Shown here in pieces: positions 646 through 23,801 of a stretch of 26,623 bases of DNA. The DNA lies in IMG/VR virus record IMGVR_UViG_3300001472_000134, positions 1 to 26,623 of that record; one strand, written 5' to 3'. The notes under the pieces were generated by a model, which saw nothing but the letters and a program-made list of their open reading frames with translations, was not told the DNA's origin and ran no database searches. The translations under genes were made by a program, and so were the position numbers. This DNA is from a virus. Position 1 is the first letter of the stretch. Each line of letters starts with the position of its first letter.

Positions 646-650
646 ATCCA

Positions 651-3860: not shown

Positions 3861-3869
3861 AATTTTCTC

Positions 3870-4505: not shown

Positions 4506-4903
4506 TATGTTCTCCATTTAGCGTTATCTTCAAACTCAAAGTGTATTAGACCATCTTTGAGATGAAGCAGTCTGTTGCGATTTACTATCGTTGTGTCAAC
4601 AGGTAAGTGTAGCAACTCTAATGTTGTCTTACCTGATTGCATAAATTCAAAGTAATTACGGTACGAAGCAACTGCAATATACTCTGCAGCTTCTTTATTA
4701 CTATAATTTCTTCTCTCTGCCAGTAATTGTCTAGGATTACACAGAAAGCTACCCCCGAGAAAACTTTTCCCAAAGTACTTGTATGTTTTATCCTTTCGGC
4801 TGGCTGGGATTCTCTTGTAAGTCAAGAGATGAATAATAGTGAGAATTGAAACACTATCGCCTTTCGCTTCTCTATATATCTTTTCCCAATTATATTTTAT
4901 CAT
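4505..4903 (-). CDS. Conserved phage protein of unknown function
   Basis: The 132-aa protein starts NWEKIYREAKGD and contains YSNKEAAEYIAVASYRNY near the middle. I recognise it only as a type seen in marine phages and give no function. It is the first gene after the promoter at 4906-4934. The ATG at 4903 is only 2 nt from the -10 box, so a normally placed transcript start (about 4898-4900) would fall inside or just after the start codon. Either the RNA starts unusually close to the -10 box or another promoter feeds this gene. It is coupled to the SSB gene by TAATG. Confidence 0.65.
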   Translation of the reverse strand: MIKYNWEKIYREAKGDSVSILTIIHLLTYKRIPASRKDKTYKYFGKSFLGGSFLCNPRQLLAERRNYSNKEAAEYIAVASYRNYFEFMQSGKTTLELLHLPVDTTIVNRNRLLHLKDGLIHFEFEDNAKWRT

Positions 4904-4905
4904 AT

Positions 4906-4934
4906 ATTATAACAAATTTTGAAACTCGTGTCAA
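4906..4934 (-). promoter_or_regulatory. Sigma-70 promoter for the SSB-SbcC operon
   Basis: On the minus strand TTGACA (4934-4929), a 17-bp spacer and TATAAT (4911-4906). The flanking sequence is AT-rich and the -35 is preceded by CTAC rather than the usual GTTC. The ATG of the downstream gene begins 2 nt after the -10 box. Confidence 0.85.
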
Positions 4935-4954
4935 GTAGTATTTTTCGGAGGTGC

Positions 4955-6235
4955 TTACAGGGTTGATATCTCATATCCTTGTTTGATATAGTACCCTAGT
5001 CGTTGACTAGCCTGTCTCTTTGCAGTTTTTCCGATTAAATTAATATCTACTATTGCGGGTTGTGGTTTTCCTTCATAGTCTCTAATAACCCTACCAATGA
5101 GCTGGGTAAGTAGAGGCTCGTTATTCACTGGTGTTGCCAGTATCAAACAGCTTAGAATGTTTAAAGAAATACCTTCTGAGAATATTGATTGTGTCCCATA
5201 CAGTATGTCTTTATCTTCATAAATCTGTTGAAGTATATCTGGTCTTTCTTCGTGTGGTATATCTCCTGTTACATAAACTGCATTATCACCAGTGAGTTTG
5301 GCACAGTTCTTTAAGAAATCCACTCTATCAGATACTACTAACACTTTATGACCTTTGGCGGCATATGATGCAGCAGCCATTGCCACAGAATGTTGGTACT
5401 CTGGGTTGTAGGCTAACTCATTTATTCGATTAGCCCAAGGTATTGATGTTCCATCTATAAACCTTATAGGTATTTGTAGGATATCAATTTTTGGCACCAT
5501 AAAGTTTTCCTTTGGTGGTTTAAAAACATTATCTCCAAAGTAATCTCGGAAGACAACATGTTTACCATCTTTTCTTTGTAAGGTACCTGTAAGTCCTATC
5601 TTATATCTAGCACAAGACTTATCTATAATTCGTGAGAATGTTGGAGAAGATACATGATGCATTTCATCTAGTATGATTGTTCCAAATTCTTGTCTAATAT
5701 CTTTTATTCTTTTGTATAGTGATTGTATATTTCCTACTACTATAGGAGGTTCTGTATCAAAGCTACCACTACCAATCACTCCAGCTTTAAATCCAAAGAC
5801 TTTGAGTACTTCATTTTCCCACTGCTTACGCAAAGGGACAGTGTGCGTAACTACAAGAGTCTTTTGACCTAACTTACCAGCTATTGCTAAAGCTGTAAAT
5901 GTCTTTCCCCAACTGACCCAAGCGTTAATTATAGCACTGTCATATACTTCATCATATACCAACTGTTGGCTTTCACGTAATTGAAATGCAAAAGCAGGGA
6001 ACTTCTGAGGTTTCTCGGTTCGTTTATCAACTATTTCATAGTCGTTTGGTATTAAATCCTGTCTACCAATAGGTATAGCTATAAGTCCTTGCTTAATTAA
6101 TGCCATGTTCTTAATTATAAATGGTGGGTCACTAAATCTAAAAGAAGGTATAGAATAAGTTAATTCATCATCAATCTTTTTTTGAGTATGCGGAAGCACC
6201 TCCATATAAATCCTATCGCTAAGTACGGCTTTCAT
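4955..6235 (-). CDS. Superfamily 2 DNA helicase, UvsW-like
   Basis: The 426-aa protein has the ordered SF2 motifs: a Q-like LRESQQ near 87-91, Walker A SWGKT (108-112), VVTHT (motif Ia, 128-132), DEMHH (190-194), TGT (216-218), and a C-terminal helicase lobe with GRVIRDYEGK (motif VI, near residue 390). A short N-terminal domain of about 80 residues precedes the motor, as in T4 UvsW. UvsW unwinds R-loops and branched DNA and drives the switch to recombination-dependent replication. The ATG at 6235 overlaps the previous stop as ATGA. Confidence 0.88.
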   Translation of the reverse strand: MKAVLSDRIYMEVLPHTQKKIDDELTYSIPSFRFSDPPFIIKNMALIKQGLIAIPIGRQDLIPNDYEIVDKRTEKPQKFPAFAFQLRESQQLVYDEVYDSAIINAWVSWGKTFTALAIAGKLGQKTLVVTHTVPLRKQWENEVLKVFGFKAGVIGSGSFDTEPPIVVGNIQSLYKRIKDIRQEFGTIILDEMHHVSSPTFSRIIDKSCARYKIGLTGTLQRKDGKHVVFRDYFGDNVFKPPKENFMVPKIDILQIPIRFIDGTSIPWANRINELAYNPEYQHSVAMAAASYAAKGHKVLVVSDRVDFLKNCAKLTGDNAVYVTGDIPHEERPDILQQIYEDKDILYGTQSIFSEGISLNILSCLILATPVNNEPLLTQLIGRVIRDYEGKPQPAIVDINLIGKTAKRQASQRLGYYIKQGYEISTL

Positions 6236-6702
6236 TTTATCCAGTGAAGTCCTTGTAACTCTTTTATATCACTCCATACAAACCAAGCATAGTCAATAGA
6301 GTCTGTTCCTTTTCCTGTAAACGAAGGTCTCTTACTTAGTATATATAATCCATCAGGTGGAAACTGTTGCCAAAAACTATATCTTTTTTGACTACCTAAA
6401 AAATTTATTCTTAGTAACATTACTACTGTAGGAGCGCAAGATAAAGCATGCTCTATAAATTCTTGTGCTAAAGAAAATGGAGGATTGGTAAATACTAAAT
6501 CTACTTCTCCACTATAATCAAAGAAGTTTTTTCCTTCTTCTATTTCTGAGTATGTTGTTTCTATTCCTTTATTTTCTAGAAATGATACTATTCTACCATC
6601 TCCTGCTCCAGCTTCATGAGCTGTCTTAAATTGACTCCAATCTATAGGCAGATGTTCATAGCACCAAGTAGGAGTAGGGTAGTAGTCATTCGGGTGTCTC
6701 AT
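6232..6702 (-). CDS. DNA adenine methyltransferase-like protein
   Basis: The 156-aa protein is a small class I SAM-dependent methyltransferase fold. It starts with DYYPTPTWCYEHL (residues 6-18), then the SAM-binding loop EAGAGDG (30-36) and the catalytic NPPF (73-76) typical of N6-adenine enzymes. It lacks room for a separate target-recognition domain. It could modify phage DNA against host restriction, or mark it. Start and stop both overlap their neighbours by 4 nt. Similar short phage proteins are annotated as Dam-like, but activity is not proven by the motifs. Confidence 0.72.
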   Translation of the reverse strand: MRHPNDYYPTPTWCYEHLPIDWSQFKTAHEAGAGDGRIVSFLENKGIETTYSEIEEGKNFFDYSGEVDLVFTNPPFSLAQEFIEHALSCAPTVVMLLRINFLGSQKRYSFWQQFPPDGLYILSKRPSFTGKGTDSIDYAWFVWSDIKELQGLHWIK

Positions 6703-7067
6703 GCTTCTTTATCAATGTCCCATTTAATTACATTGCTTTTTCTTGGGAAGAGTTTCTTCTTCCACTGCTCTTGTCTATATTCTGTATACCAGTTGCGTCC
6801 ATCTCTTTCAGCTTCGTGAAATATAATGTTAGTAAATATAATTGGTATTATAACTCCTAAGTGGACAATGATAGAAGTTACTATGTCGTAACCATACCAG
6901 CCTAAATAGTATGTAGCAATAAAGCCAAAAAATACAGACCACATTGTAAAGAGTACTAATGTAAAGTACGCTTGTATCGATGCATCGGGTATGTGTCTTA
7001 GCGGATTAAATCGATTATCCATAACGACTCTCCAGCAATCTATAACCCAAAATAATAATTTTTTCAT
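6699..7067 (-). CDS. Two-helix membrane protein of unknown function
   Basis: The 122-aa protein has a hydrophobic N-terminal start, two clear membrane segments (roughly residues 35-57 and 63-85) and a basic C-terminal tail rich in Lys, Arg and Trp. The ATG at 7067 is preferred because GGAG lies at the correct distance and it overlaps the upstream stop as ATGA. The ATG at 7079 itself belongs to that ribosome-binding site. No family is recognised. The position between polymerase and methyltransferase genes does not indicate a role. Confidence 0.65.
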   Translation of the reverse strand: MKKLLFWVIDCWRVVMDNRFNPLRHIPDASIQAYFTLVLFTMWSVFFGFIATYYLGWYGYDIVTSIIVHLGVIIPIIFTNIIFHEAERDGRNWYTEYRQEQWKKKLFPRKSNVIKWDIDKEA

Positions 7068-7543
7068 ATTTTTCTCCATGAATCTTTTTCTTTTTTATTT
7101 GAAGTAGAATACAGAATCCAAGGCATATCTTGTCTATATAATATGCCTGCCCAAGTTTCTGTATCTTTTAAAGGTCTTTCTAGTGTAAAGGGGAAAGGAC
7201 AATCCTTTATCCATAATATACTTGCCACACCTTTTTTATCTGTTCTTAATATTTTGTGGTACTTGAGTTTTACCACTATTGTTTTTTCTTTTGTAAATAC
7301 ATATCCTGCACTATCTATGTAGTGGCTACCTTTATGTCTTAGTAAAGATGATATATCTTTTACCATATACTTTAGAGGGTAGATACTTTTCATAGGAGAC
7401 TGCAATCTTCTTATGCCTAGCGTTTCCCCTTTCATATTAGTATCATCTACTACTTTGTTTTCAATCCAAAGCAATCCATCTGCTGACACTACATCATCAG
7501 TATGGATTGTAAATATTGGAAATTTTAGTCTATCATATATCAT
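7064..7543 (-). CDS. Conserved hypothetical protein downstream of DNA polymerase
   Basis: The 159-aa protein begins MIYDRLKFPIFTIHTDD and has a mixed, soluble composition with alternating strands. No motif is recognised. The ATG at 7543 overlaps the polymerase end by 11 nt and is taken as the start, since an upstream reading to 7594 would lie within polymerase codons. The Shine-Dalgarno is weak, so translation probably depends on ribosomes finishing polymerase. Confidence 0.6.
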   Translation of the reverse strand: MIYDRLKFPIFTIHTDDVVSADGLLWIENKVVDDTNMKGETLGIRRLQSPMKSIYPLKYMVKDISSLLRHKGSHYIDSAGYVFTKEKTIVVKLKYHKILRTDKKGVASILWIKDCPFPFTLERPLKDTETWAGILYRQDMPWILYSTSNKKEKDSWRKI

Positions 7544-9815
7544 ACTTGGCTTCAAACTTTCCAAAGGAATAGTCATCACCAACATCAAAGTCACAACCTA
7601 CAGGAGTTCCTGGGATACTAAATCCTCTATCTAATTGTATAAACTCTTGTAGTTTTTCTGAGTATAACTCTACCTCATTTTCTGGCACTTCTGCAAGAAT
7701 TGAGTCATGGACTAAAGCAAAGATTCTTGACTTCATATTATTTCTTTTGATATATTCATTCATATCAATTCCACCAAGTAAGTTAATATCAGAAGCTACT
7801 GATTGAACTAAGAAGTTCATACCAGATCTAACTTCATGACTTTGTATTCCTTGATTATCAGAATTTACATTCGGTAATCTTCTCTTTCTGCCTGTAGCAC
7901 CATAGATAAATCCATTATCCATAATAAATCTACTACTCTTATCTATCCATGCTTTTAGTTTATGAAACTGTCTAAAGTAATCATCAATGACTTCTTGAGC
8001 CTGAGACTTACTAAAGTAAGTACCTGAGTCTGTAGTAACTTGCTGTGATATTTTATTTGAACCAGCACCATACATAATACCAAATGTTACAGCTTTAGCA
8101 GCCTGTCTATCGGTAGGGTATAGTTCTGCAACTTCATCTGCTTCACAAGGCAAGTTAAATACTAACTTAGCAATATTACTATGAAAGTTACCGCCTTCTT
8201 TGAATATATTCATAAGATTCTTATCATCAGCGAGTACAGCCGCAACATACACTTCTGCAGTTGTTAAGTCCATTGCAACTATCTTGTTGCCTTCTTTGGC
8301 ACGAATACAACCTTTGACAATAGGATTGTCTCTAGGTATTTGTTGCATATTCATTTTACCACTCGAAGAAAGACGACCTGATGTTGTGCCATGCAGATTG
8401 AAACCTGTACGTAGTCTATCATCTCTATCAAGTTGTGGTAATATTTTATCAAGATAAGTATTCTTTATCTTAGACTTTTGTCTTATGCTAAGAATGTGAG
8501 CAGGTATTTCATGTTCTTCTGCTAATTGTTTTAGTACTTCTGCATCTGTTGAGTGTGCACCTGTACCAGTCTTTTTACCTGTAGGTTTTAGTCCTACAAA
8601 ATCAAACAGTAATTGTCTTAGCTGTACTGTACTGTTTGGATTAAATTGTTTTTGATTTACTTGTTCAAACTTTTCTACTGCTTCAAACTCATATAGTTTT
8701 GCAACTGCATTGTCTATGTCATCTTGCATCAAGTCTCTACCTTTCTCTAATCTTTCTTTATCAAAAGGCACTCCGTTATCTTGGGCATCTGTTAGAAAGC
8801 GACAGCCAGGTATCAGTATATTTTCATACACAGACCACAGTTTAGCATTTTTCTTAACAGCTGGATATAGTTTCTCGAATACTAGTAATGTAACTACTGC
8901 GTCCATTGCTGCGTATGTTTTCATAACTTCAAAAGGAATACTATCCCAAGCAAATTCTGCTTTGAGTATTCCCTGTGATTTTCTAAATCCTGCTATCCAA
9001 TCATGCATTGGTTTCTCATAATCACCATAAGGTGTGTACTTCATAGCGAGTTGTTTTAAACCATGTGTGCCTGGCTGTTCTTCCAAGCAATAGTGAAGAA
9101 GCATAGTATCTTCAAAGCGTGGAAACTTGAAGTTGAAATGATACTCAAAGAAAGCTAAGTCAAACTTAGCATTATGAAACACTACCATCTTAGTGTCAAA
9201 TATCTTCTGCATTATTTCCTCGATGTCTGGCGTGATAACATCAGTAAGTATATAGGCACCCATGTCCTTCTTATAAGATAGACTAAATCCTATCATATAA
9301 CCGTCTCTAGGATAAAGTCCTGTTGTCTCTGAGTCGAGTGCTATAAATTTATTAGGGTGGTCTAATGCTGCCTGCAAAAACTCTCTTGCTTCTGCCTCAT
9401 CATCAATTCCTAATGCTTGCTCTTCTGTTACTTGTGCTACTACCAAGTCTCCACTTATAAATTCTTGTATGTTCTTTTTGCTCTCGTCCCAAAGTGGTTT
9501 AGCTTCAGGCTTGAACGAAAGCATAGCAGGATTGATAACGGGCAGAAATTTATCTTCTACACATCTGCCGCTGTATTCTGTGATAGAATTTACACTTGTG
9601 TAATACTTTAAGGCTTCTGAGCCTACAAGTACTACCCAAGTATAATCATCAAGGTTAATTTCTATATCTACATCTGCTTTTAAAATCTTTTTCTTTCTGG
9701 CGTCTGAACACAGAGCATATCTGTCGAACTCAAACGCATTATCAAAGCGGTCTCCCCAATTAGTTCGGGACATCTTTGATTCAATTATTGCTACTTTTGT
9801 CATTTGTTTTTCCAT
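7533..9815 (-). CDS. Family A DNA polymerase with proofreading domain
   Basis: The 760-aa replicative polymerase has a 3'-5' exonuclease with LDSET (Asp161, Glu163), HNAKFD (Asn215, Asp219) and YAAMD (Tyr301, Asp305). The polymerase domain has TSGRLSSSGKMNMQQIPR (about 478-495), motif A with Asp516 and Glu521, motif B RQAAKAVTFGIMYG (570-583) and motif C HDS (703-705). The position equal to E. coli Phe762 is Phe578. Motif A reads DLTTAEVY rather than DYSQIELR, and motif C is HDS rather than HDE. Residues 1-140 resemble the uracil-DNA-glycosylase fold. The ATG at 9815 is 7 nt after a -10 box, so the message should be leaderless. A downstream ATG at 9803 is an alternative. Confidence 0.95.
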   Translation of the reverse strand: MEKQMTKVAIIESKMSRTNWGDRFDNAFEFDRYALCSDARKKKILKADVDIEINLDDYTWVVLVGSEALKYYTSVNSITEYSGRCVEDKFLPVINPAMLSFKPEAKPLWDESKKNIQEFISGDLVVAQVTEEQALGIDDEAEAREFLQAALDHPNKFIALDSETTGLYPRDGYMIGFSLSYKKDMGAYILTDVITPDIEEIMQKIFDTKMVVFHNAKFDLAFFEYHFNFKFPRFEDTMLLHYCLEEQPGTHGLKQLAMKYTPYGDYEKPMHDWIAGFRKSQGILKAEFAWDSIPFEVMKTYAAMDAVVTLLVFEKLYPAVKKNAKLWSVYENILIPGCRFLTDAQDNGVPFDKERLEKGRDLMQDDIDNAVAKLYEFEAVEKFEQVNQKQFNPNSTVQLRQLLFDFVGLKPTGKKTGTGAHSTDAEVLKQLAEEHEIPAHILSIRQKSKIKNTYLDKILPQLDRDDRLRTGFNLHGTTSGRLSSSGKMNMQQIPRDNPIVKGCIRAKEGNKIVAMDLTTAEVYVAAVLADDKNLMNIFKEGGNFHSNIAKLVFNLPCEADEVAELYPTDRQAAKAVTFGIMYGAGSNKISQQVTTDSGTYFSKSQAQEVIDDYFRQFHKLKAWIDKSSRFIMDNGFIYGATGRKRRLPNVNSDNQGIQSHEVRSGMNFLVQSVASDINLLGGIDMNEYIKRNNMKSRIFALVHDSILAEVPENEVELYSEKLQEFIQLDRGFSIPGTPVGCDFDVGDDYSFGKFEAKYDI

Positions 9816-9822
9816 TATATAT

Positions 9823-9851
9823 ATTATATCAAATTCTGAACGCGATGTCAA
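9823..9851 (-). promoter_or_regulatory. Sigma-70 promoter of DNA polymerase, leaderless start
   Basis: TTGACA (9851-9846), 17-bp spacer, TATAAT (9828-9823), preceded by AGTTC. The ATG at 9815 starts 7 nt after the -10 box, where transcription should begin. The TGA stop of the upstream HNH gene is embedded in the -35 hexamer. Confidence 0.9.
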
Positions 9852-10375
9852 GAACTGTTTTTGATTCCTTCTTCTGCTTGCATTGCCGCTTTTATGTGTG
9901 GATTATTATGTCTAGGCGATACAAATCTTAGATTAGATACATGAGGATTCCACCTATCATTATCTATATGGTCTACTTGAAAATAAGACCTCATAATTTC
10001 TTTTAGTTCAATTGAAAAGCTTGACCAGTAAAGTTCCAAATCTAAAGGACATGAATCTATCCATAACCAAGTATCTGCTACTGCTAAATGAACATCAACC
10101 CTTCTTGCTATCATACCAGCTTTTGCATGATTAAGGTCGTATGATTTTGAGCTGTACGCTATACCAATTGTTTCTATTGGAATTTGCAATTTTACAGCTG
10201 GATAATCAGCTTTTGGACTTCTTCTACTCCAAGTTAAGGGTCTGCCTTTTTTACTTACTTTATAACTGATTATTAAACCAGTTCGTGCTATTTTATATCC
10301 TGGAACTATATGCCCACGATATTTTAGTTCTGTTAATTCTTCTTTTCCTGTCCATTCAGGTTGTCTATTATCCAT
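9848..10375 (-). CDS. HNH endonuclease, homing-type
   Basis: The 175-aa protein has the pattern of free-standing phage HNH nucleases: an N-terminal beta-rich part (GHIVPGYKIARTGLI), VHLAVADTW around residues 95-103, and the catalytic segment QVDHIDNDRWNPHVSNLRFV (133-152) followed by RHNN. Such enzymes nick or cut DNA and often spread into replication genes. It is inserted between primase and polymerase, overlapping the primase stop by 8 nt, with its own stop lying inside the polymerase promoter. No intron is visible in the neighbours, which are intact. Confidence 0.85.
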   Translation of the reverse strand: MDNRQPEWTGKEELTELKYRGHIVPGYKIARTGLIISYKVSKKGRPLTWSRRSPKADYPAVKLQIPIETIGIAYSSKSYDLNHAKAGMIARRVDVHLAVADTWLWIDSCPLDLELYWSSFSIELKEIMRSYFQVDHIDNDRWNPHVSNLRFVSPRHNNPHIKAAMQAEEGIKNSS

Positions 10376-11204
10376 ACAATCTATCCCTAAGGCTACTAAC
10401 CTTTGCTAGAGCAAGTCCGCCTGGGTCCATATTAGAACCTAGATTTATATTTCTAGATATTAGTCCAACCTTCTCTGCCATTATTTTTAAATCTTCCGCA
10501 GCTTCTTGTCCTGCGTTATCGCCATCAAACATAATATCTACTGCTTCTATGTTCTGCATCTTAAGTATTGATAGCTTTTCTATGTCTATGTTCTTTGTTC
10601 CGAAACAACAGATTGCATTTGTCAATCCTTTGTCCCATAAATTTACCATGTCAAATATACCCTCTACTAATATTACTTTGCCTTTAATAGGTTTAACATT
10701 AGAAGGATACAGTGGTAGCTTAGCTTGTGGAGGGTATATTAGATACTTAGGTATCTCGGTCATTGTCATATGACGACCGTTAAAAGCTACCACCTTTCCT
10801 GTTATATCACGAATCGGGAAGACTATTCTTCCATTAAACTGCGAATCGTGATGCATAAAAGCATCAAAATGCTTATATGTTTCTGGTTGTATTCCCCTCC
10901 AGTTTCCTTTATAAGGTTGGAAACCTTTGGGGAACTCAAAACCTACACTTGCAGAGCGTTTTTCTTCAATAGAGGTTTTCAACTTTTGTCTCTTTATCTC
11001 TAAGAAGTTTGCTGCTGCACCAAAATGTGTGAACAAGTTGCCCTTAAAACCACAAGCAAAGCAATTAAATATACCAGTGATATTATCAATGCGCATACTT
11101 GGATTACTATCCTCGTGGTCAGGGTTAATACACTTGACTACATAGTCTCTACCTGAGACTTTGTAGTCAATACGTTTCTCTTGTAATAGTTCATCAACTT
11201 TCAT
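10368..11204 (-). CDS. DnaG-type primase
   Basis: The 278-aa protein has a CHC2-type zinc finger (Cys25, His30, Cys48, Cys51 in CINPDH...CFAC) followed by a TOPRIM core with VILVEGIFD (Glu181) and MFDGDNAG (Asp227, Asp229). It is much shorter than cellular DnaG and lacks a helicase-binding C-terminal domain. It should synthesise RNA primers with the DnaB-like helicase encoded three genes upstream. The ATG at 11204 overlaps the ParB-like stop by 11 nt. Confidence 0.93.
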   Translation of the reverse strand: MKVDELLQEKRIDYKVSGRDYVVKCINPDHEDSNPSMRIDNITGIFNCFACGFKGNLFTHFGAAANFLEIKRQKLKTSIEEKRSASVGFEFPKGFQPYKGNWRGIQPETYKHFDAFMHHDSQFNGRIVFPIRDITGKVVAFNGRHMTMTEIPKYLIYPPQAKLPLYPSNVKPIKGKVILVEGIFDMVNLWDKGLTNAICCFGTKNIDIEKLSILKMQNIEAVDIMFDGDNAGQEAAEDLKIMAEKVGLISRNINLGSNMDPGGLALAKVSSLRDRLYG

Positions 11205-11745
11205 TTAAGTTACTGCCCAAATTACTATTATCAGAACTATGTATGCTGCTATTAGTATTTCCATTTCTTTTCCATTTAAGTTTTTCGCCAATGTCTTCAT
11301 ACTCGGTCATTTTAGTTCCGTCAATATCTACTTCATGCTGGTAAAATTTTGATTTGAATACTGCTTCTTGCATCTGAAACCAGATTGCAATCGCATCATC
11401 TCTAAACTTCTTATCACTCCATAAATAGTAACAATTCCACCAATCCTCTAAATATCTATGAACTACTACATCCAAGTTAAAGTTTGAATCGGTTTGCTTT
11501 ATTATTTGTACTGCTCGTAATCTTTGACTACCAGCAATAGGATACCAACTTTTCATAGCTAAGAAAGGATTCATAATCCCACTTTCTTTTATACTAGCTA
11601 CGAGTAGATGGTTTGCAGGAACATTATGTATGTTCTGCACAACAGTAGGCTCTAGTAAGAGTCTATCCGTTGTTGTCTTTACCACTTCATAAGGTGGTAC
11701 AGCTACTAAATTTGCAGCTGTTTCTCCTATTCTATCACTAGCCAC
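11194..11745 (-). CDS. ParB/Srx-fold domain protein
   Basis: The protein contains a ParB-like nuclease/CTPase-fold core: VVKTTTDRLLLEP, then IKESGIMNPFLAM and WYPIAGSQRLRAVQ, which carries the GSQR box. The rest is charged with a Ser/Asn-rich tail. The best start is a GTG at 11745 that overlaps the upstream stop (GTGGCTAG), giving 183 aa. An ATG at 11844 would force a 107-nt overlap with a well-formed small gene and add residues unlike the rest. Phage relatives occur in replication clusters, but the function is unknown, and no DNA-binding HTH is obvious. Confidence 0.68.
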   Translation of the reverse strand: MASDRIGETAANLVAVPPYEVVKTTTDRLLLEPTVVQNIHNVPANHLLVASIKESGIMNPFLAMKSWYPIAGSQRLRAVQIIKQTDSNFNLDVVVHRYLEDWWNCYYLWSDKKFRDDAIAIWFQMQEAVFKSKFYQHEVDIDGTKMTEYEDIGEKLKWKRNGNTNSSIHSSDNSNLGSNLNES

Positions 11746-11977
11746 GCTGATCTGCCATCCATTTGCCAAAAGATTGAAATAAAGAGTCTTTTGTTTCTTT
11801 CTCTCCTGTTGTCCATTTCTTTCCACCAGGCTTAGTTTCTTCAAATCTTTTTAGTCCGTTATTAAATGCAATCTCCATAACTCCATGACTAGCATGTATG
11901 TATTTTACTTGATTGCCCCACTCTTCAGCCTCTAGTTGTTTAGCTTTTTTTCTGATTAATTCATCATATTGAGTCAT
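11738..11977 (-). CDS. Small hypothetical protein (79 aa)
   Basis: The protein is charged, with an amphipathic N-terminal helix (MTQYDELIRKKAKQLEAEEW) and a compact C-terminal part ending KWMADQRG. No family is recognised. It overlaps the helicase gene end by 14 nt and the ParB-like GTG start by 8 nt, an arrangement that suggests coupled expression with replication genes. Helicase loading or regulation is possible but not shown. Confidence 0.6.
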   Translation of the reverse strand: MTQYDELIRKKAKQLEAEEWGNQVKYIHASHGVMEIAFNNGLKRFEETKPGGKKWTTGEKETKDSLFQSFGKWMADQRG

Positions 11978-13319
11978 GTATATCTTCTCCTGTTGATAGG
12001 CTATCTTTGATTGCGTCTCTCTCTTTAGGATTCATGGTGGTTTGGGGGCCTATCTTTAATGTTTCCCAATCCATAACGCTTGTAAATCCTTCCATTTTTG
12101 CACTACGCATTTTAGTACAATTGAATGTGATACACTCGTCTTCTGGTGACCATGTTTCAATCGTAAACGCTGCGTCAGCAGCATCTAAAATACCTTTTGC
12201 AAATCTTGCCTCTCCTGTATTGTCTGTTTGATAAGGAGAGAATACAGGAACTTCATATTCCTGTGCCATACTTTTCAGAGTCTTACTTACTTCTATTTGC
12301 TCTGTCCAGTCATATTGTCCTGACCGACTTGGTGCATTACTTCTTTTGACTTGGTTTAGATAGTCAACTATAATTACACCATAATCTCTTTGTGAAACTC
12401 TACTCTCTAATTCTTGTCTAATCTTTCCTAGACTAAGTATTGGGTCATAGACTACATCTAGTTGTCTATCTTTATTTAGTGGTAGTGTTTGTAATTTTTT
12501 ATGAAACCCATCAAAGTCTTTATTATCATAGTACTCTGGTAATAATTCGTGTCCACCATCAAATCTACCTGCCCACCATTCACCCACACGATTCCACTCA
12601 ACAGTTGTTAAGTTACGAGTAGCTAGTCTTGATATGGGTATTCGTGCGCCAAGAGCACATAATCTTTGTAGAATAGAACGACTATCCATTTCTATTGTAA
12701 AATAGATACTGCTTCTTCCTTGATTGTAAACATTGTTGGCAATATTACAACAAGCCAAGGATTTACCAGCACCTCTACGACCACCTACTAATACTAAGTC
12801 TCTTGGAGAGAACTTCATTGATTGGTCATAGTCATCATTTAATCCTAGAGGTAAGAACTTCTTAAGGTCTTTCTCAGAATCAAATAGTGCAATAGTCTGC
12901 ATATTTTCTTCGGGTGGTTTTAAATCGACACGGTCTCCTATATCTAATACGATATTCTGTAGAGCTTCTACATTCTCCTCAGCATTAGATATAGCGACAG
13001 TCTTTTCTATAAATCCATCTAATTCATCTAGTATTTCTACTTGCGTATATTCATTTTTTAAGTACTCTAATAATACATACGCATCAACCTCGACCTCTAC
13101 AGCTTCGATTGCGAATACTTTTTCTTGTAGTTTTCTATCACGAATGGATAGTTTAAGGTCTTCAAAGGTTGGTAGACCATTATAACTTTTAATATGTTTA
13201 TCAATTACTTTATAAAGAGATTGATATTCTGCAGATAAATAGTTCTCTCTTAGGTTTCCCCAAGATTCGAAATCTTCCTGCGTTATTATTTGCTTCAGTA
13301 AAGCTGAAGTTAAGTTCAA
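11964..13319 (-). CDS. DnaB-like replicative helicase
   Basis: The 451-aa protein has an all-helical N-terminal part and a RecA-type motor with Walker A GGRRGAGKS (179-187), the H1a-like FTIEM (208-211), Walker B VIIVDY (315-320) and a late FSPYQTD motif. This fits phage DnaB/gp41-type hexameric helicases working with the DnaG-type primase. The start is a TTG at 13319, which is supported by a strong GGGAGGG Shine-Dalgarno 6-12 nt upstream. No ATG is available nearby. Confidence 0.9.
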   Translation of the reverse strand: MNLTSALLKQIITQEDFESWGNLRENYLSAEYQSLYKVIDKHIKSYNGLPTFEDLKLSIRDRKLQEKVFAIEAVEVEVDAYVLLEYLKNEYTQVEILDELDGFIEKTVAISNAEENVEALQNIVLDIGDRVDLKPPEENMQTIALFDSEKDLKKFLPLGLNDDYDQSMKFSPRDLVLVGGRRGAGKSLACCNIANNVYNQGRSSIYFTIEMDSRSILQRLCALGARIPISRLATRNLTTVEWNRVGEWWAGRFDGGHELLPEYYDNKDFDGFHKKLQTLPLNKDRQLDVVYDPILSLGKIRQELESRVSQRDYGVIIVDYLNQVKRSNAPSRSGQYDWTEQIEVSKTLKSMAQEYEVPVFSPYQTDNTGEARFAKGILDAADAAFTIETWSPEDECITFNCTKMRSAKMEGFTSVMDWETLKIGPQTTMNPKERDAIKDSLSTGEDIHDSI

Positions 13320-13342
13320 TGTCTACCCTCCCAGATATAAGC

Positions 13343-13366
13343 GAACAGGGGATAATTCCCCTGTTC
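13343..13366. other. 10-bp hairpin ahead of the helicase gene
   Basis: GAACAGGGGA (13343-13352) pairs with TCCCCTGTTC (13357-13366) around a TAAT loop, a perfect GC-rich stem in the 62-nt gap between the Myb-like and helicase genes. No U-run follows on the minus strand, so it is not a simple terminator. It may set mRNA processing, partial termination or stability at this operon junction. Confidence 0.6.
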
Positions 13367-13381
13367 AGTTGTTAGAAAGAA

Positions 13382-14107
13382 TTAGCTAGATGCTTTTTCT
13401 TTTCTAGCGGCTCCGTCATAATCAGCACAAGTTAAGCCTCTACGAGTTAACATTGTTTTAACGCCTCTTACAGTTTTGCCAATTTCGTCAGCGATATCTT
13501 CAACATTCATGTTTTCGATATCATTAACTTCCGCTAAAGGGTCAGCTTTGCTAGAACCTTTAGTTTCTTTTTGCTTAGGTATAGCGCCTATGTCGCCACT
13601 TCTAAGTAAGCTAAGAGCTTTTCCTCTGATAGAATTAACAGATTTGCCAAGTGCTTCTGCGATTTCTTCAACAAATGCACCATCGTTTACCATAGTGGTA
13701 AATGTGTTTTCTTCTTCGGGAGAGTAAGTTCTGACAGATTCAGGCTTCTCAGCTGGTTTTACATGAGAAGTTAATTCCATTGATAGAATTTTTCCCTGTA
13801 TTGATTTTGCAGAAAAGTGTCCACCTTCGAATGAAGATGCAATGTCTGCGTATGTGTACTGACCACTGTTGTCAGTTACAAAGTTTGATAAAGTAGCTTC
13901 TTGATCTTCAGAAAAAGTTCTGTTTGATACTGAAGAAGCAAGCTCTACGTCATATCCCATTTTTCTTAGCTTTGAGGATACTGACCTTGTTGATGTTTCT
14001 AAATCATCAGCTGCGTCAGATACCATAGCTTGAGAAATTGGGCTTGAGTCACCGACGAAATCTACTAACTGTTGAGTTCTTTCGTCTGTCCATTTTGGTA
14101 ATGCCAT
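13382..14107 (-). CDS. Multi-module Myb/SANT-like helix-turn-helix protein
   Basis: The 241-aa protein appears to hold four related helical modules. They begin KWTDERTQQL (about 5-55), TFSEDQEATL (about 63-112), TYSPEEENTF (about 128-175) and a last one around VEDIADEIGKTVRGVKTML (about 203-235). Each has an acidic W/F/Y-S/T start and a helix pair ending in a basic recognition-like segment (SVSSKLRKMG, SIRGKALSL, GVKTMLTRRG). This suggests a modular DNA-binding protein. Two single-module relatives lie at 17764 and 25055. AGGAA precedes the ATG. The start at 14107 is 3 nt from the upstream ligase gene. The number of true modules is my reading, not a profile search. Confidence 0.7.
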   Translation of the reverse strand: MALPKWTDERTQQLVDFVGDSSPISQAMVSDAADDLETSTRSVSSKLRKMGYDVELASSVSNRTFSEDQEATLSNFVTDNSGQYTYADIASSFEGGHFSAKSIQGKILSMELTSHVKPAEKPESVRTYSPEEENTFTTMVNDGAFVEEIAEALGKSVNSIRGKALSLLRSGDIGAIPKQKETKGSSKADPLAEVNDIENMNVEDIADEIGKTVRGVKTMLTRRGLTCADYDGAARKEKASS

Positions 14108-14109
14108 TT

Positions 14110-14865
14110 TTAGTTTCCTATTATTTCTTTTAAGTTGGTTATTATTTTAACACCCCTTTCTTGGGCTGTCCTTGTTTTTGCGGACTCTACACCGCTTTCA
14201 TTAACTAATATATTTACATCTTTAGTCAAACTACTTTTAACAAGATAGCCCAGTTTTTCTAAATATTCTGTTGCTTGAGCTTTTGTCTTGTAGCTTTTTA
14301 GTTTTCCTGAAATACAAACGACTCCTTTATTCCCTGTAGGTTTAGATACTTTTAGTATCTGTATCCACTTGAATGGAAGTCGTTCATACCCGTTTATAAA
14401 CTCGTCGTAATACCAGTCCAATAAATGTTCTGTTGCTACTGGTCCAAGTCCTGCTTCTTTGCAAGTTTCCTCACTAAGTTCTGCCATGTTTTTAATAACA
14501 GAGCAAATTTTTGCAGAAGCTGACCGACCAATTAGTTTGATAGAGAAAGCTGGTAACAAGTCGACTAAGTCAGTAGCCTTACTACTTTGTATTTCTCTAT
14601 GCAGTTTAACTGCTAGTTTCTCGGATTGAAGTGCGTCTATCATAATTTCTAGAGGCATTTCATATAAATCGAAGTAATCGATTAATTGTAGTTTTTCAAC
14701 TGTTCTAGGTCCGAGACCTTTGATTTTGAGAGTAGAAGCAAAATGCTCAATCTTTTTACTTGTCTTGCCTGCGCAATTCAGGTTATTACAATAGAGCTGG
14801 TCTTTAACCCACTCAAGCTGTGTCATACAAGATGGACAGTGCGTTGGCGGGAGTATTTGCTTCAT
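14110..14865 (-). CDS. NAD+-dependent DNA ligase, C-terminal subunit (Zn-HhH-BRCT)
   Basis: The 251-aa protein equals the back half of a bacterial LigA. It has a four-cysteine zinc finger (Cys10, Cys13, Cys26, Cys31), helix-hairpin-helix repeats including IKGLGPRTVEKL (48-59) and a second around AGLGPVATEHLL, and a C-terminal BRCT domain starting VVCISGKLKSYKTKAQA. No adenylation domain is present; that is encoded by the separate gene at 16144. The two products should form a two-subunit ligase, as described for phage T5. A promoter 28 nt upstream and AAGAGAG supply expression. Confidence 0.88.
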   Translation of the reverse strand: MKQILPPTHCPSCMTQLEWVKDQLYCNNLNCAGKTSKKIEHFASTLKIKGLGPRTVEKLQLIDYFDLYEMPLEIMIDALQSEKLAVKLHREIQSSKATDLVDLLPAFSIKLIGRSASAKICSVIKNMAELSEETCKEAGLGPVATEHLLDWYYDEFINGYERLPFKWIQILKVSKPTGNKGVVCISGKLKSYKTKAQATEYLEKLGYLVKSSLTKDVNILVNESGVESAKTRTAQERGVKIITNLKEIIGN

Positions 14866-14892
14866 GTGTTCTCTCTTAATTTCTATTTATAT

Positions 14893-14921
14893 ATTATAAC
14901 AAAATTCAGTTCCCATGTCAA
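14893..14921 (-). promoter_or_regulatory. Sigma-70 promoter of the ligase C-terminal gene
   Basis: TTGACA (14921-14916), 17-bp spacer, TATAAT (14898-14893), preceded by AGTTC. The predicted leader is about 20 nt and holds an AAGAGAG ribosome-binding site. The stop codon of the upstream gene (14918-14920) lies in the -35 box. Confidence 0.9.
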
Positions 14922-15286
14922 GAACTATTTTTTGGAAAGTCCTGCAGAATCAACGAATCAATTTTGAAACACTCTGTATGACCTCCAAACTTAACCTTAG
15001 GAGAATATTTGTCATGTCGGTACTTTTCATGGAGGTCTTGTTCTTCTGCCCATACGAGGTACAGAGGAGCGTGCCAAGTCTTTTGAATACGAATATCATA
15101 TCCTTTAAAACCCTTACTACGCTTTATTATATGTCTCCAATCCTTACCTGATGCGATTCCAACCTTAATACATTCTCTTTCGAATGTTTTTGTATTGACC
15201 AGAACTACCCCATAAAGAACTCCGTCTCTATCGCATTCATCGGGGTGATTACTAAAGTAAGTTTGATTATATTTACCTATACTCAT
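14918..15286 (-). CDS. GIY-YIG-like nuclease domain protein
   Basis: The 122-aa protein has a strand LYGVVLVN, then IKVGIASGKDWRHIIKR (about 40-56), an acidic WAEEQDLHEKYR (about 79-90) and FGGHTECF near the end. This order matches divergent GIY-YIG proteins of the T5orf172/Mug113 type, where the Arg and Glu are catalytic and GxTECF is a common C-terminal signature. Small phage members may be nicking enzymes. It sits between the two ligase genes. Its ATG overlaps the upstream stop as ATGA. Confidence 0.55.
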   Translation of the reverse strand: MSIGKYNQTYFSNHPDECDRDGVLYGVVLVNTKTFERECIKVGIASGKDWRHIIKRSKGFKGYDIRIQKTWHAPLYLVWAEEQDLHEKYRHDKYSPKVKFGGHTECFKIDSLILQDFPKNSS

Positions 15287-15585
15287 GCTATGAGTACTGG
15301 AGTAAAGTGCCTAATAAATCCTGTTAGTAAGATAAACACTGCTATACCATTTAGTATTATCAATGCTCTATCCTTCCACAACAATCCTACCCATAGCCAA
15401 CCTGTTACTCCTATTAAAGATAAACATAAGTCTAGAAAAGGGTATAATTGACTAGACCTTACTGCAAAAGCACATATTAAAAATGCACTAGCTATCCATT
15501 TTACATACCATGAAAGGTCTTGTTTAGGAGTAGCACTCTTATAAATTCTTTTGCTATTCTCTACTTCTTCTTTAGAATACTTCAT
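15283..15585 (-). CDS. Membrane protein with about three transmembrane helices
   Basis: After a charged N-terminus (KYSKEEVENSKRIYKS), the protein has hydrophobic spans near residues 30-45, 49-67 and 71-92 and a short end. A conserved-looking WYVKWIASAFL and WLWVGLLWKDRALI resemble small membrane proteins of unknown function in marine phages and bacteria. The ATG at 15585 is chosen, but one at 15597 is also possible since both lie in the end of the upstream gene and neither has a good Shine-Dalgarno. The function is unknown. Confidence 0.6.
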   Translation of the reverse strand: MKYSKEEVENSKRIYKSATPKQDLSWYVKWIASAFLICAFAVRSSQLYPFLDLCLSLIGVTGWLWVGLLWKDRALIILNGIAVFILLTGFIRHFTPVLIA

Positions 15586-16144
15586 CAAACCACTCATGTA
15601 CTAAGTTGTCAAATAATTCATCTGCAACTCCATGTCCTTCAATCTCGTCCCACCAATCAAAGTTTTCATCAGATATATCTACTTTATATTTAGTTTCGAA
15701 CTGTTCTGTTAGCTCGTCTCCATCTATTTCTTCGTAGTCTCCATTAAACCAAACTCCAATAAAGTTTCTAAACTCATCTTCATAATTACATTTAATTACT
15801 ACTTCTTCATCTAGTTTTATTAAGTGTTGGTGTAAACTTTCTAAGTAAGGAATTACTGGGCTCCATGCACTTACTATGTAAGCACTAAATTCATCGGCGT
15901 CTTCTATATGAGCCCATTTGGCTCCTATATTTTCACAACCCCAATCATACCAGTTATCTTCGTCATAGCCTTCTAGAAATGGGTGTTTTTGTATTTCAAA
16001 CCACTCCCATATTTCTATAGTGCCATCTCCATGATAACTAGGTCTTTCTACTTTCTCTCCATAGTTTGTAAACAACTTATCCCATTCTAGTTGTACTGCT
16101 TCGTTTCCTTCCACAGTAAGATAATTATATACATGATTTGCCAT
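15572..16144 (-). CDS. Api92/YubB-like (ferredoxin-like fold) phage protein
   Basis: The 190-aa, very acidic protein begins MANHVYNYLTVEGN, has YDWGCENIGAKWAH (about 66-79) and SAWSPVIPYLESL (about 92-104). These features match the Api92/YubB ferredoxin-like family of phages and plasmids, whose role is unknown. The C-terminal half is rich in Asp and Glu. AAGGAG precedes the ATG, which overlaps the ligase N-terminal gene stop as TAATG. It is one of three genes separating the ligase halves. Confidence 0.65.
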   Translation of the reverse strand: MANHVYNYLTVEGNEAVQLEWDKLFTNYGEKVERPSYHGDGTIEIWEWFEIQKHPFLEGYDEDNWYDWGCENIGAKWAHIEDADEFSAYIVSAWSPVIPYLESLHQHLIKLDEEVVIKCNYEDEFRNFIGVWFNGDYEEIDGDELTEQFETKYKVDISDENFDWWDEIEGHGVADELFDNLVHEWFDEVF

Positions 16145-17094
16145 TAGTCTATTCTCCTTACTATTCTTGGTATAATTTCACCACTTCGTATAACTTCTAC
16201 TTTACAACCTAATTCTAAACCCATATCTCCTATATATCTTGCATTATGTAAAGTTGCTTTGCTTACTACAGCACCATCAATATCTACAGGTTGTAGCATT
16301 GCTACTGGAGCTACTACTCCTGACTTTCCGACATTCCATACTACATCAAGGAGAGTGGTGATAACTCCTTCTTGTATTTGTTTGAGTGCATAAGCACCTC
16401 TTGGGTGGTGTGAAGTATACCCTCTCTTTTCAAACTCGACATTAGAATTAATTCTAAATACAATTCCATCATCTGGGTACTCAGACCAATTACTATCCAT
16501 AACTGTATCAAAGAAATATCGTTTCAGTAATTGTATGTCGCAAGACCATTCGGGTTTTTGAGAGGGGGTAAGTCCATATGCGATGAAGCGTAAATCTCTT
16601 TCCATAAATTCATTAATGTCTTTTAGGTTAAGAGCGCCAGCTGCATAATTTCTAGCATTTTTAATTGTTCTTGGTGCTACTACTTCGCCTGTAACTTGAA
16701 AGTATTCAATCTTTGTAGCTATGCTACGAGGGACTAATGTTTCCATTTGTCTTGTTATATCCAATCCCTTCTTGCCATCTCCTCTTGTCAAGGCTCGATG
16801 TAGTTTTCCACCGACATAGAGTAAAGATACTGCAGCGCCGTCCAATTTAGGACTGACAATAACAGTATCTTTATAACTATTGAAAGGGTCTTTAGTACTT
16901 ACTTCATTACTAAAAACCTTTTGTAAAGAAAACATCTGAAAAGCATGAGGATAGCGATTATCTTTACTAGATGCGCCAACATCTTCATAATTTACTAACT
17001 CAGCTAGTCTATCAAATTCTGTATCAGACATGATAGGACTGCCGTTATAGTATGCAATCGCTGCCTTTCTTAAACTTGCTTTTATATTTTCCAT
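16144..17094 (-). CDS. NAD+-dependent DNA ligase, N-terminal subunit (adenylation + OB)
   Basis: The 316-aa protein has a short Ia domain with YYNGSPIMSDTEFDRL (15-30), which binds NMN of NAD+. The nucleotidyltransferase domain has the adenylated Lys83 in SPKLDG (81-86), LTRGDGKKG (102-110) and GEVVAP (136-141). An OB domain ends with VEVIRSGEIIPRIV. It stops where cellular LigA would continue into the zinc finger, which is encoded at 14110. The ATG at 17094 lies 6 nt from a -10 box, so the transcript should be leaderless. Confidence 0.93.
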   Translation of the reverse strand: MENIKASLRKAAIAYYNGSPIMSDTEFDRLAELVNYEDVGASSKDNRYPHAFQMFSLQKVFSNEVSTKDPFNSYKDTVIVSPKLDGAAVSLLYVGGKLHRALTRGDGKKGLDITRQMETLVPRSIATKIEYFQVTGEVVAPRTIKNARNYAAGALNLKDINEFMERDLRFIAYGLTPSQKPEWSCDIQLLKRYFFDTVMDSNWSEYPDDGIVFRINSNVEFEKRGYTSHHPRGAYALKQIQEGVITTLLDVVWNVGKSGVVAPVAMLQPVDIDGAVVSKATLHNARYIGDMGLELGCKVEVIRSGEIIPRIVRRID

Positions 17095-20929: not shown

Positions 20930-21163
20930 TTATTTTATGATTTGTGAGAACTCAGTATAGCCTCCGATGCTCTCTTTGTCTATGAAGATTTGTGGGAATG
21001 TTCTGGCGGTGGGTACTCTTTCGAGTAGTTCGTGAAGTTCAAAATCTACACCTAATTTATATACTACATACTTATTAGATGATTCTTGAACCATTTGTTG
21101 TGCTTGTTTTACTGCCATGTCGCAGTAAGGACAGTTATCTTTACTATAAATTTCTATGTTCAT
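20930..21163 (-). CDS. Glutaredoxin
   Basis: The 77-aa protein has the dithiol site CPYC (Cys11-Cys14) after a first strand IEIYSKDN, the cis-Pro loop TFPQIFID (55-62) and the GSH-binding GGYTEF (67-72). It can reduce disulfides, including those of ribonucleotide reductase. The ATG at 21163 is chosen because it overlaps the cytochrome stop as ATGA and gives the expected length. Confidence 0.93.
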   Translation of the reverse strand: MNIEIYSKDNCPYCDMAVKQAQQMVQESSNKYVVYKLGVDFELHELLERVPTARTFPQIFIDKESIGGYTEFSQIIK

Positions 21164-21603
21164 TTCATTGTTTCCTCTATGAATTTTCCTATTGTTGCTA
21201 TTTCTTGTTCTGAGAGCATGCCTGCTTGAGCCCACATTGTAGAGCTCATTGCTCCAACCTGGCCTCTATTCTTATATGTAGTAAGCCTATCAACTATGTA
21301 ATCAGCTGATTGACCTGCTAACTTAGGAAATACTGCCATACCTTGTCCGTCTGGTCCATGGCATGCTGCACACCCTGCCCATAAACTTTTTATTGAACTG
21401 AATTCGTCTGCTGCTGCAAGAGCCTGCTTAGCTCTAAGTATATCTACTGATGTACCATTTAGTGCAACATATTCTTCGTAGCACTCACCTGTACATGAAT
21501 GTCCTCCACCATATCCACTATACTCTAAGTTAGGATAAATTTTGAGTGTAAAGAATCCAAAAATTACCGATACTCCTATCATTGTCATTCCTAATTCTCT
21601 CAT
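21160..21603 (-). CDS. Membrane-anchored c-type cytochrome (class I)
   Basis: The 147-aa protein has an N-terminal membrane anchor (about residues 5-23), a linker with CTGEC, and a small class I heme domain. Heme attachment is GCAACHGPDGQG (Cys78, Cys81, His82); VFPKLAGQSADYIVDRL and a Met-rich AMSSTMWAQ (Met119 or Met123 as axial ligand) follow, then the terminal helix. It resembles c4/c553 electron carriers and would act on the periplasmic side of the host inner membrane, matured by host machinery. The ATG at 21603 overlaps the 57-aa membrane gene stop as ATGA. A longer reading to 21723 is not supported. Confidence 0.9.
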   Translation of the reverse strand: MRELGMTMIGVSVIFGFFTLKIYPNLEYSGYGGGHSCTGECYEEYVALNGTSVDILRAKQALAAADEFSSIKSLWAGCAACHGPDGQGMAVFPKLAGQSADYIVDRLTTYKNRGQVGAMSSTMWAQAGMLSEQEIATIGKFIEETMK

Positions 21604-21773
21604 TCGAACGCTACTCCTATCATTAGCATAGATACACCCATAAATCCTAACACTAATACCTGAACTACAGACATTACTGCTATTTGTTTCATAGGGTGTA
21701 CCTCTACTACTTTTTCTACCCAAGCTTCACTTGGGGAAAGGTTTATTATTTGCAACACCTTTTCTTCTTTCAT
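21600..21773 (-). CDS. 57-aa single-span membrane protein coupled to cytochrome c
   Basis: It starts MKEEKVLQIINLSPSEAWVE, then has one hydrophobic span (about residues 30-55) ending VAFE. It begins directly after the stop of the candidate holin gene and its TGA overlaps the cytochrome ATG (ATGA), so the two are translated together. A cytochrome partner, a second holin or an unrelated membrane peptide are all possible. No family is recognised. Confidence 0.7.
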   Translation of the reverse strand: MKEEKVLQIINLSPSEAWVEKVVEVHPMKQIAVMSVVQVLVLGFMGVSMLMIGVAFE

Positions 21774-22151
21774 TTATTTACCATTAATTTTATCTTTTGC
21801 CGTTCCAGCATATAGTCCAAACCAGGCTGCTCCTGCTCCTACTACCACTGAAATCAATCCTGATTGTTCAAATGTTGGTTCTGGTAATTCCATAAACCAT
21901 ATTGTACACTTATATAATAATATAATATATACTGATAAAAACGCTCTAGGGAATATTCTCCATGCGTCTATCATGTTTGATAACCATATCCACTTCTGCC
22001 ATGGATTATCTGGTTCTCTTTCGTTCTCCATCTCCATAATCTTGGCTTTTAATTCACCAATTTCTGAAACCATTGCCATAAATTTATTAAGGTCAATCTC
22101 TACCTCGTTACGACTCATGTCGCCTTGAAATTGTTCACTAGGTTGTGCCAT
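21774..22151 (-). CDS. Candidate holin (two membrane spans)
   Basis: The 125-aa protein has an acidic N-terminus with a short coiled coil (VSEIGELKAKIMEMENERE, 28-46), a Trp-rich segment, and two membrane spans (about 70-88 and 98-117) with a charged end. This plan resembles marine phage proteins annotated as holins. The lysozyme lies in the same transcription unit, which supports a lysis role. Holin function is inferred. Confidence 0.55.
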   Translation of the reverse strand: MAQPSEQFQGDMSRNEVEIDLNKFMAMVSEIGELKAKIMEMENEREPDNPWQKWIWLSNMIDAWRIFPRAFLSVYIILLYKCTIWFMELPEPTFEQSGLISVVVGAGAAWFGLYAGTAKDKINGK

Positions 22152-22782: not shown

Positions 22783-22918
22783 CTTTTTCCTTTAGTAGTG
22801 TGAAGGCTTCAGTTATATACTCATCAATAGTCATACCTCTTTCGGTTGCTTGTTGATTCATAGCGTCCCACATCTCTTGTGAGATTTGATACTCTTTGCC
22901 TTCGAATTTAATTTGCAA
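22763..22918 (-). CDS. 51-aa ribbon-helix-helix-like protein, TTG start
   Basis: The frame from TTG at 22918 gives a first strand MQIKFEGKEYQIS followed by two helices (QEMWDAMNQQATERGMT and IDEYITEAFTLLKEK), the plan of small RHH repressors of the Arc/MetJ type. GAGG lies 10 nt upstream and the start overlaps the lysozyme end. An ATG start would remove the strand that contacts DNA in this family. A regulator of the late genes is possible; no operator was identified. Confidence 0.6.
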   Translation of the reverse strand: MQIKFEGKEYQISQEMWDAMNQQATERGMTIDEYITEAFTLLKEKDAKHKQ

Positions 22919-23333
22919 ACAGGTCTGCCTCAGCTTGTCTTCTTCTTGTAAGTCCTTCTAAAACTTTGCCACCTGCTTTATTCCATCTCATCATTTGAGC
23001 TGGTACACCTGCATAATCTCCTGCGTTTAATACTTTCAAAAGCGTACTTGCTTTTAAGTTTCCAACTCCTAGATTATAAACCCATGATACCATAGCATCA
23101 AACTGGTTTTGGTTTAATTCAACAGTTACTAAGCCAGTAATATAACTTTCATATTCATTTAGTTCTTCTACTAGCATTTCATTTGCTGTATTTTCTGAAA
23201 TAACCATACCTTGTTGCACATCTTTAGTGTGCCCGTAGCCTATTGTCCATACGCCTGCAGCGCATTGATAAGCATTTAATTCTAGACCTTCAAAATGTTT
23301 AATCATTTCTAGTCCTTTTGTTCCTATATTCAT
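22908..23333 (-). CDS. Phage lysozyme (glycoside hydrolase 24)
   Basis: The 141-aa endolysin has the GH24 E-8-C/D-5-T arrangement: Glu15 in HFEG, Cys24 in YQCAAG and Thr30 in WTIGYGHT. The C-terminal helices include WVYNLGVGNLKASTLL and the final GLTRRRQAEADLF. It cleaves peptidoglycan. There is no signal peptide with this start (ATG at 23333, AGGA upstream), so export should rely on a holin. Longer readings to 23444 belong to another gene's frame overlap. Confidence 0.93.
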   Translation of the reverse strand: MNIGTKGLEMIKHFEGLELNAYQCAAGVWTIGYGHTKDVQQGMVISENTANEMLVEELNEYESYITGLVTVELNQNQFDAMVSWVYNLGVGNLKASTLLKVLNAGDYAGVPAQMMRWNKAGGKVLEGLTRRRQAEADLFAN

Positions 23334-23340
23334 TTGTGTC

Positions 23341-23646
23341 CTATATGTAGAAGCTTTCGCCACAGCCGCAGCGTCCACTCTCTTGATTATTTGTGATAAG
23401 AAACTCTTCATTAAGTCCATTAACCACCCAATCCAATTTTGCATCTGTTAGATACTCCTTGCTGTATATATCAATTACTAATATATCTTGATATATCATA
23501 TCAGTTAAGTCAGGACTCTCGGCATAACTTAACTCATATGTATATCCACCACAACCTCCACCCGATACTTTAAGGCGAGCGCCCCAAGCAGAGCTTGAGG
23601 CGACTCTTTCTTTTAACATTGCTAAGGCATTGTCTGTTATCTTCAT
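23341..23646 (-). CDS. A-type Fe-S carrier (IscA/ErpA/HesB family)
   Basis: The 101-aa protein has the three conserved cysteines of the family: Cys32 in GGGCGGYTY and Cys93/Cys95 in GRCGCGESF. These bind or pass iron-sulfur clusters. The start is ATG at 23646, which overlaps the stop of the 52-aa membrane gene as ATGA; a longer reading to 23712 would read that gene in another frame. It is placed between hsp20 and lysozyme, next to redox genes. It could supply clusters to host or phage proteins. Confidence 0.92.
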   Translation of the reverse strand: MKITDNALAMLKERVASSSAWGARLKVSGGGCGGYTYELSYAESPDLTDMIYQDILVIDIYSKEYLTDAKLDWVVNGLNEEFLITNNQESGRCGCGESFYI

Positions 23647-23801
23647 AATATTGGTAGCATCGCTAGATACATTGTTCCAAAGCATACTGTAAACATAATA
23701 ATTACCTCGCACAACTCCCCATCTGGGCAGTATTTGTCTTTAACTTCTTGAATCGCTTGCAACTTGGCATAACGATTAAAGAATCGTTTTGCATATTGCA
23801 T
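23643..23801 (-). CDS. 52-aa single-span membrane protein coupled to iscA-like gene
   Basis: It starts MQYAKRFFNRYAKLQAIQEV, has a middle with two cysteines (YCPDGELCE) and ends in a hydrophobic span (about residues 33-52). AGGAG lies 9 nt before the ATG and overlaps the hsp20 stop, and the TGA overlaps the IscA ATG. No family is recognised. The paired cysteines could bind metal. Confidence 0.72.
   Translation of the reverse strand: MQYAKRFFNRYAKLQAIQEVKDKYCPDGELCEVIIMFTVCFGTMYLAMLPIL

Follow-up and report, generated by a model that had tools for sequence, protein, structure and literature searches.

A membrane-anchored class I c-type cytochrome, predicted in a T5-like phage contig and in relatives from T4-like phages, is probably (we estimate at about 60%) an auxiliary respiratory electron carrier in marine phages. 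The gene, here called CYT, is shared by hundreds of sequences and often lies near an alternative oxidase (AOX) gene, so that marine phages may keep or re-route host respiration. The window analysed is the whole stretch of 26,623 nucleotides corresponding to positions 1 to 26,623 of IMG/VR record IMGVR_UViG_3300001472_000134.

A cytochrome gene in a T5-like phage contig

A T5-like replication block occupies positions 72-17094 (minus strand) and comprises homologues of ligA, ligB, D5, helicase, primase, PolA, D10, D11, D12, D13, and D14, an order kept relative to Proteus phage PM135, which belongs to the T5 family (Demerecviridae). By blastp, 13 of the 16 PM135 query genes were matched in the window, and the best matches of the window PolA came from Proteus, Enterobacter, Aeromonas, and Salmonella phages, PM135 first. 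This gene order and these matches identify the window as phage rather than host DNA, so that the cytochrome gene is phage-encoded, as the sequence-only reading had proposed, and the host chromosome fragment which that reading had named as a possible objection is rejected. The broader suspicion that CYT is host DNA or a product of mis-assembly draws on close relatives found in four contigs that had been assigned to bacterial MAGs (L082-L085). However, all four loci show the phage context nrdA-nrdB-CYT-glutaredoxin, and a 121-kb MAG contig, the only one read along nearly its full length, is T4-like, with terminase, sheath, portal, and capsid genes. Alongside the gene order and PM135 matches of the window, these contexts make a host or assembly origin vanishingly improbable. 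Since CYT lies in phage-like contexts there, we take the four, from MAGs named Planctomycetaceae, Synechococcus, and Sphingobacteriales, to be phage contigs that were apparently mis-binned. Two membrane proteins of the window (6699-7079 and 15283-15597) have counterparts, 45-70% identical, in CYT contigs that are T4-like or untyped, which suggests a gene pool common across phage families.

CYT, which runs on the minus strand from an ATG at 21603 to the end of its stop codon at 21160, is the third gene in a same-strand row made up of a PHROG 10198 membrane protein (22151-21774), a 57-aa single-span membrane protein (SMP, 21773-21600) with relatives in viral contigs, CYT itself, and a glutaredoxin (21163-20930; PF00462 at 1.5e-9 for 20930-21160). 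The ATGA join of SMP and CYT noted earlier is confirmed at 21600-21603, and a second ATGA overlap, read from the sequence, links the CYT stop to the glutaredoxin start at 21163. SMP has one C-terminal hydrophobic stretch (residues about 28-57). The product of 21774-22151, formerly called a holin, had PHROG 10198 as its sole match, with none in Pfam or NCBIfam, and is here treated simply as a membrane protein of that PHROG. Elsewhere in the window, Pfam named Hsp20 and AhpC/TSA genes, and the genes for a phage lysozyme and an A-type Fe-S carrier overlap in their listed ORF starts (22908-23712).

The 147-aa CYT product matched Pfam Cytochrom_C (PF00034) at 3.5e-9, with 38.3 bits against a cut-off of 21.3. 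Its predicted N-terminal membrane anchor covers about residues 5-24 (21532-21591); a Kyte-Doolittle scan placed the hydrophobic segment at about residues 4-23, and the structural model has a helix at residues 2-28. The CAACH heme attachment motif lies at residues 78-82 (21358-21372), Met123, the predicted distal heme ligand, at 21235-21237, and a Cys37-x3-Cys41 pair between the membrane helix and the heme domain at 21481-21495. Across 95 distinct CYT ORFs, C37, C41, Y45, G50, C78, C81, H82, and M123 are invariant, whereas M119 is kept in only 84 and is Gln in 11, which refines the axial Met of the sequence-only reading to M123 rather than M119. The median dN/dS of CYT was 0.27 over 430 pairs, next to medians of 0.29 for SMP, 0.13 for AOX, 0.09 for NrdB, and 0.35 for glutaredoxin. 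Conservation along the whole length and this purifying selection place the observation above chance. Judged from its sequence, CYT is a class I monoheme c-type cytochrome gene with intact predicted heme ligands and anchor, in agreement with the membrane-anchored class I cytochrome c originally called from the CAACH motif and axial Met region.

The AF2 model of CYT (mean pLDDT 75.7, pTM 0.51) allowed structural comparison of the heme domain (residues 65-147), whose best match was cytochrome c546/556 (8yts; Z 12.3, 81 residues, 2.4 Å). Further matches were c552 (1cno, Z 10.8), c554 (2zzs, Z 10.5), and cytochrome c4 as chain K of the P. aeruginosa bc1-cbb3 supercomplex (8smr, Z 10.4), and a sequence-profile search of the PDB agrees with these. 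Like c552, c554, and diheme c4 (1cno, 2zzs, 1etp, 8smr), CYT has a class I heme domain with CxxCH and a distal Met, at 30-35% identity over about 80 residues, and its heme domain is closest to these periplasmic donors to terminal oxidases. Unlike them, it carries a membrane helix at its N terminus, plus a conserved segment, about 45 residues long, with the CX3C pair; residues 23-75, which include this segment, gave one insignificant match against the PDB and no credible relative there. With one CxxCH in 147 aa, CYT also lacks the two heme domains of a diheme cytochrome c4. An N-terminal anchor followed by one periplasmic heme domain is the layout of the cytochrome cy, NorC, or CcoO type, and CYT shares it. 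These proteins were absent from the strong structural matches of CYT, the CcoH/cy-containing supercomplex of R. capsulatus (6xkw chain p) reaching a Foldseek E of only 1.2, though they may be related to it.

This heme architecture bears on whether CYT scavenges peroxide or relieves oxidative stress, a role that would group it with the AhpC/TSA, glutaredoxin, Fe-S carrier, and Hsp20 genes of the window and with iscU, which adjoins CYT in T5-like relatives. One heme and an invariant Met123 are instead of the electron-carrier type, unlike di-heme peroxidases, and in the window some 17 kb separate CYT from the peroxiredoxin gene. We therefore consider a scavenger highly implausible.

Distribution and genomic settings of the family

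Relatives of CYT were encoded in 407 of 419 pattern-matched IMG/VR stretches, from which 80 loci were kept for context work, and in 376 of 382 stretches from a second scan seeded with a divergent member. One divergent branch (L238, L286, L289, and L291; 40-45% identity), found near AOX, keeps CxxCH, CX3C, and Met123 and has Gln at the Met119 position. A tblastn search of CYT against 50,697 INPHARED phage records gave 0 matches at E 0.01. A genome-collection scan returned four close relatives, all phage-like, its other matches being weak and confined to the heme domain; among cellular relatives, 4 of 398 genomes of one phylum passed 1e-17, with all alignments starting at residue 62 or later. 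By its location in T5-like and T4-like contexts and its homology to cellular metabolic genes, CYT is a candidate phage auxiliary metabolic gene.

The T4-like phages with CYT relatives resemble HTVC008M. In four large CYT contigs, namely G008, G009, G012, and the 121-kb one from G003, the T4-like core shares 40-73% identity with Pelagibacter phage HTVC008M, except for a more divergent primase and glutaredoxin/thioredoxin (33-35%). This kinship, together with IMG sample numbers, indicates that the contigs are presumably marine. Passages of PMC5332604 tie IscU in phages to Gammaproteobacteria/SAR86, and the IscU link gives a hint, and only that, that such bacteria may be hosts here.

Clustering found CYT in 84 of 85 loci, and its setting varies among them. 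Arrangements include nrdA-nrdB-small membrane gene-CYT-glutaredoxin, uvsW-TM21-CYT-SMP-gp55-gp47-gp46, and, in T5-like relatives, iscU-CYT, and further settings exist. Most neighbours are nucleotide-metabolism genes (nrdA, nrdB, glutaredoxin), a placement that would also fit simple co-expression with that operon. One phage contig encodes IscU and a class V aminotransferase resembling IscS close to CYT (L045:8899-10614), and unrelated single-span small proteins of the TM21, C52, and C151 types adjoin CYT in others (L012:7719-7898, L062:3846-4013, and L049). In a tree of 95 CYT proteins, built on few columns and with many open forks, the seven T5-like rows are split between two positions, and two changes are required by the starred branches (L299 being typed as T5-like by gene neighbours only). 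On this evidence, CYT has moved between T4-like and T5-like phages.

A holin-like gene of the PHROG 10198 type is specific to the T5-like group and occurs in only 9 of the 85 loci; elsewhere, CYT is found with nrdB, glutaredoxin, iscU, or gp55/gp47/gp46. The earlier proposal that the cytochrome senses or triggers changes in membrane energy near a holin finds no support in this distribution, and a lysis or membrane-energy sensor was rejected as the main reading. A related alternative is that CYT disturbs host respiration, diverting electrons or competing with a host cytochrome and so lowering the membrane potential to time lysis or block superinfection. Its membrane location is in keeping with this, as is the T5-like arrangement, where a membrane protein about the size of a lysis protein precedes CYT and SMP. 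Yet the rarity of the holin-like neighbour, the position of CYT in replication or nucleotide operons elsewhere, and intact heme ligands that suggest a working carrier rather than a decoy make such interference distinctly unlikely.

The small membrane protein and the alternative oxidase

SMP belongs to no Pfam or PHROG family, has only an incidental NCBIfam match at 0.016, and is modelled mostly as one long helix. In a search of viral genomes for the gene pair, the two genes were adjacent in 29 of 94 distinct cases, with SMP upstream in 17 and downstream in 12, in different genome slots. An SMP-seeded scan of 80 loci found CYT within the fetched stretch in 32, AOX only in 1, and neither in 47, and in several loci the same slot reads nrdB-SMP-glutaredoxin or TM21-SMP-gp55, without CYT. 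The coupling proposed by the sequence-only reading thus stands for this phage, but an obligate two-gene CYT-SMP system is ruled out. Since SMP fills the same slots without CYT, CYT looks as if it had been inserted beside an older small membrane gene; CYT loss would give the same picture. The adjacency of the two genes in three settings hints at a functional tie and could also reflect a hot spot.

Cys37 and Cys41 match the heme ligands in their invariance (95/95), and SMP (29/94) or other small membrane proteins adjoin CYT. Both observations would suit a CYT that exchanges electrons with a membrane enzyme or small-membrane-protein complex made by the phage, for example in a periplasmic dithiol/heme relay, rather than acting as a carrier in the host chain. 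However, CYT and AOX are both missing from 47 of the 80 SMP loci, the examined stretches showed no candidate phage enzyme for CYT to serve other than AOX, and AOX, by its family, takes electrons from quinol and not from cytochrome c. On balance, a phage-made partner seems unlikely.

Seven loci of the first CYT context set carry a gene of 188-202 aa, for example at L058:4467-5033 and L041:9191-9772 (both plus strand), that is identified as AOX by Pfam, the two proteins tested scoring 1e-65 and 3e-69 against PF01786. Of 57 distinct AOX ORFs at least 160 aa long, 56 contain all four motifs that we take to be the di-iron ligands, and the remaining one is cut by its contig end. A scan with AOX as its single seed gave 208 relatives in 210 stretches. 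Among the 80 loci kept, the fetched stretch held CYT in 40 and SMP in 17 (8 of these without CYT), co-occurrences that are not independent events because the 80 loci include near-identical contigs. Across 32 large records, chosen as CYT-, AOX-, or SMP-seeded and all possibly fragments, AOX was found in 18, cytochrome c in 18, and both in 7. CYT frequently occurs without AOX, and AOX without CYT, which is evidence against the carrier reading. Bacteriophage AOX is common in marine T4-like contigs, and one jumbo-size viral record (L271, G433; 250,519 bp) has AOX, CYT, and SMP within a few kb. Within INPHARED, AOX matched only phage C48C1 (OQ984149.1), whose gene is annotated as hypothetical, and a tblastn search with AOX returned no cyanophage PTOX at E 1e-3. 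A cyanophage photosynthetic cytochrome is not favoured, given the lack of INPHARED matches for CYT and an oxidase relative that is AOX rather than PTOX.

A proposed role in host respiration

The heme motif and axial Met found in 95 of 95 relatives, with AOX near many of them, support the initial suggestion that CYT could alter electron flow. As an auxiliary respiratory carrier, the CYT apoprotein would be exported, its anchor placed in the inner membrane, and its heme attached by the host cytochrome c maturation system. The periplasmic heme domain would then shuttle electrons from the host bc1 complex to a host terminal oxidase, most likely of the cbb3 type because cytochrome c4 as part of a bc1-cbb3 supercomplex is among the closest structural matches; this redox partner is suggested purely by heme-domain resemblance. 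As host protein synthesis fails in infected cells, CYT would maintain an oxidised quinol pool and an energised membrane, both of which would serve nucleotide and virion synthesis and aid phage replication. The phage AOX near CYT in many relatives may provide a second outlet through direct ubiquinol oxidation, and SMP, which also occurs without CYT, probably acts as a docking factor or as an accessory subunit in the membrane. More tentatively, anchored CYT with its CX3C segment, AOX, and SMP could form a mobile respiration-rewiring module, the phages' own electron outlet in host membranes, that mirrors cyanophage photosynthesis genes; we hold this to be possible but less than an even bet.

The closest published parallel is the cyanophage pair of plastocyanin (petE) and PTOX, which PMC3037559 describes as belonging to a mobile cassette, itself a hypothesis, that would likely keep electrons from backing up. 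As in that system, T4-like marine phages here carry genes for an electron carrier and for a di-iron quinol oxidase, both auxiliary, sporadic, and mobile. Unlike it, the carrier is a membrane-anchored c-type cytochrome and not a copper plastocyanin, the oxidase is AOX (PF01786), and CYT also occurs in T5-like phages, with hosts that are presumably non-photosynthetic. On this comparison, CYT is best read as a probable equivalent, in phages of heterotrophs, of cyanophage plastocyanin/PTOX. Among other auxiliary genes of viruses, those for cbb3 oxidase subunits and SoxD have been reported (PMC3474794, PMC8190135, PMC12713726). These are likewise respiratory or c-heme genes, but their proteins differ from CYT, and the passages on viral respiratory genes in these papers do not describe the CYT family. 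AOX is also listed for prasinoviruses (PMC12584671). In our searches of the open-access literature, we recognised no description of the CYT family or of such bacteriophage AOX, a weak absence since subscription papers fall mostly outside it.

Cyanophages are known for hijacking photosynthetic electron flow, and to our knowledge few genes have been tied to the way in which phages maintain energy flow in heterotrophs, which are far more numerous. If our reading is true, a widespread and transferable phage cytochrome c, often near AOX, would make viral control of respiration directly testable, and would bear on the oxygen and carbon burnt by infected ocean cells.
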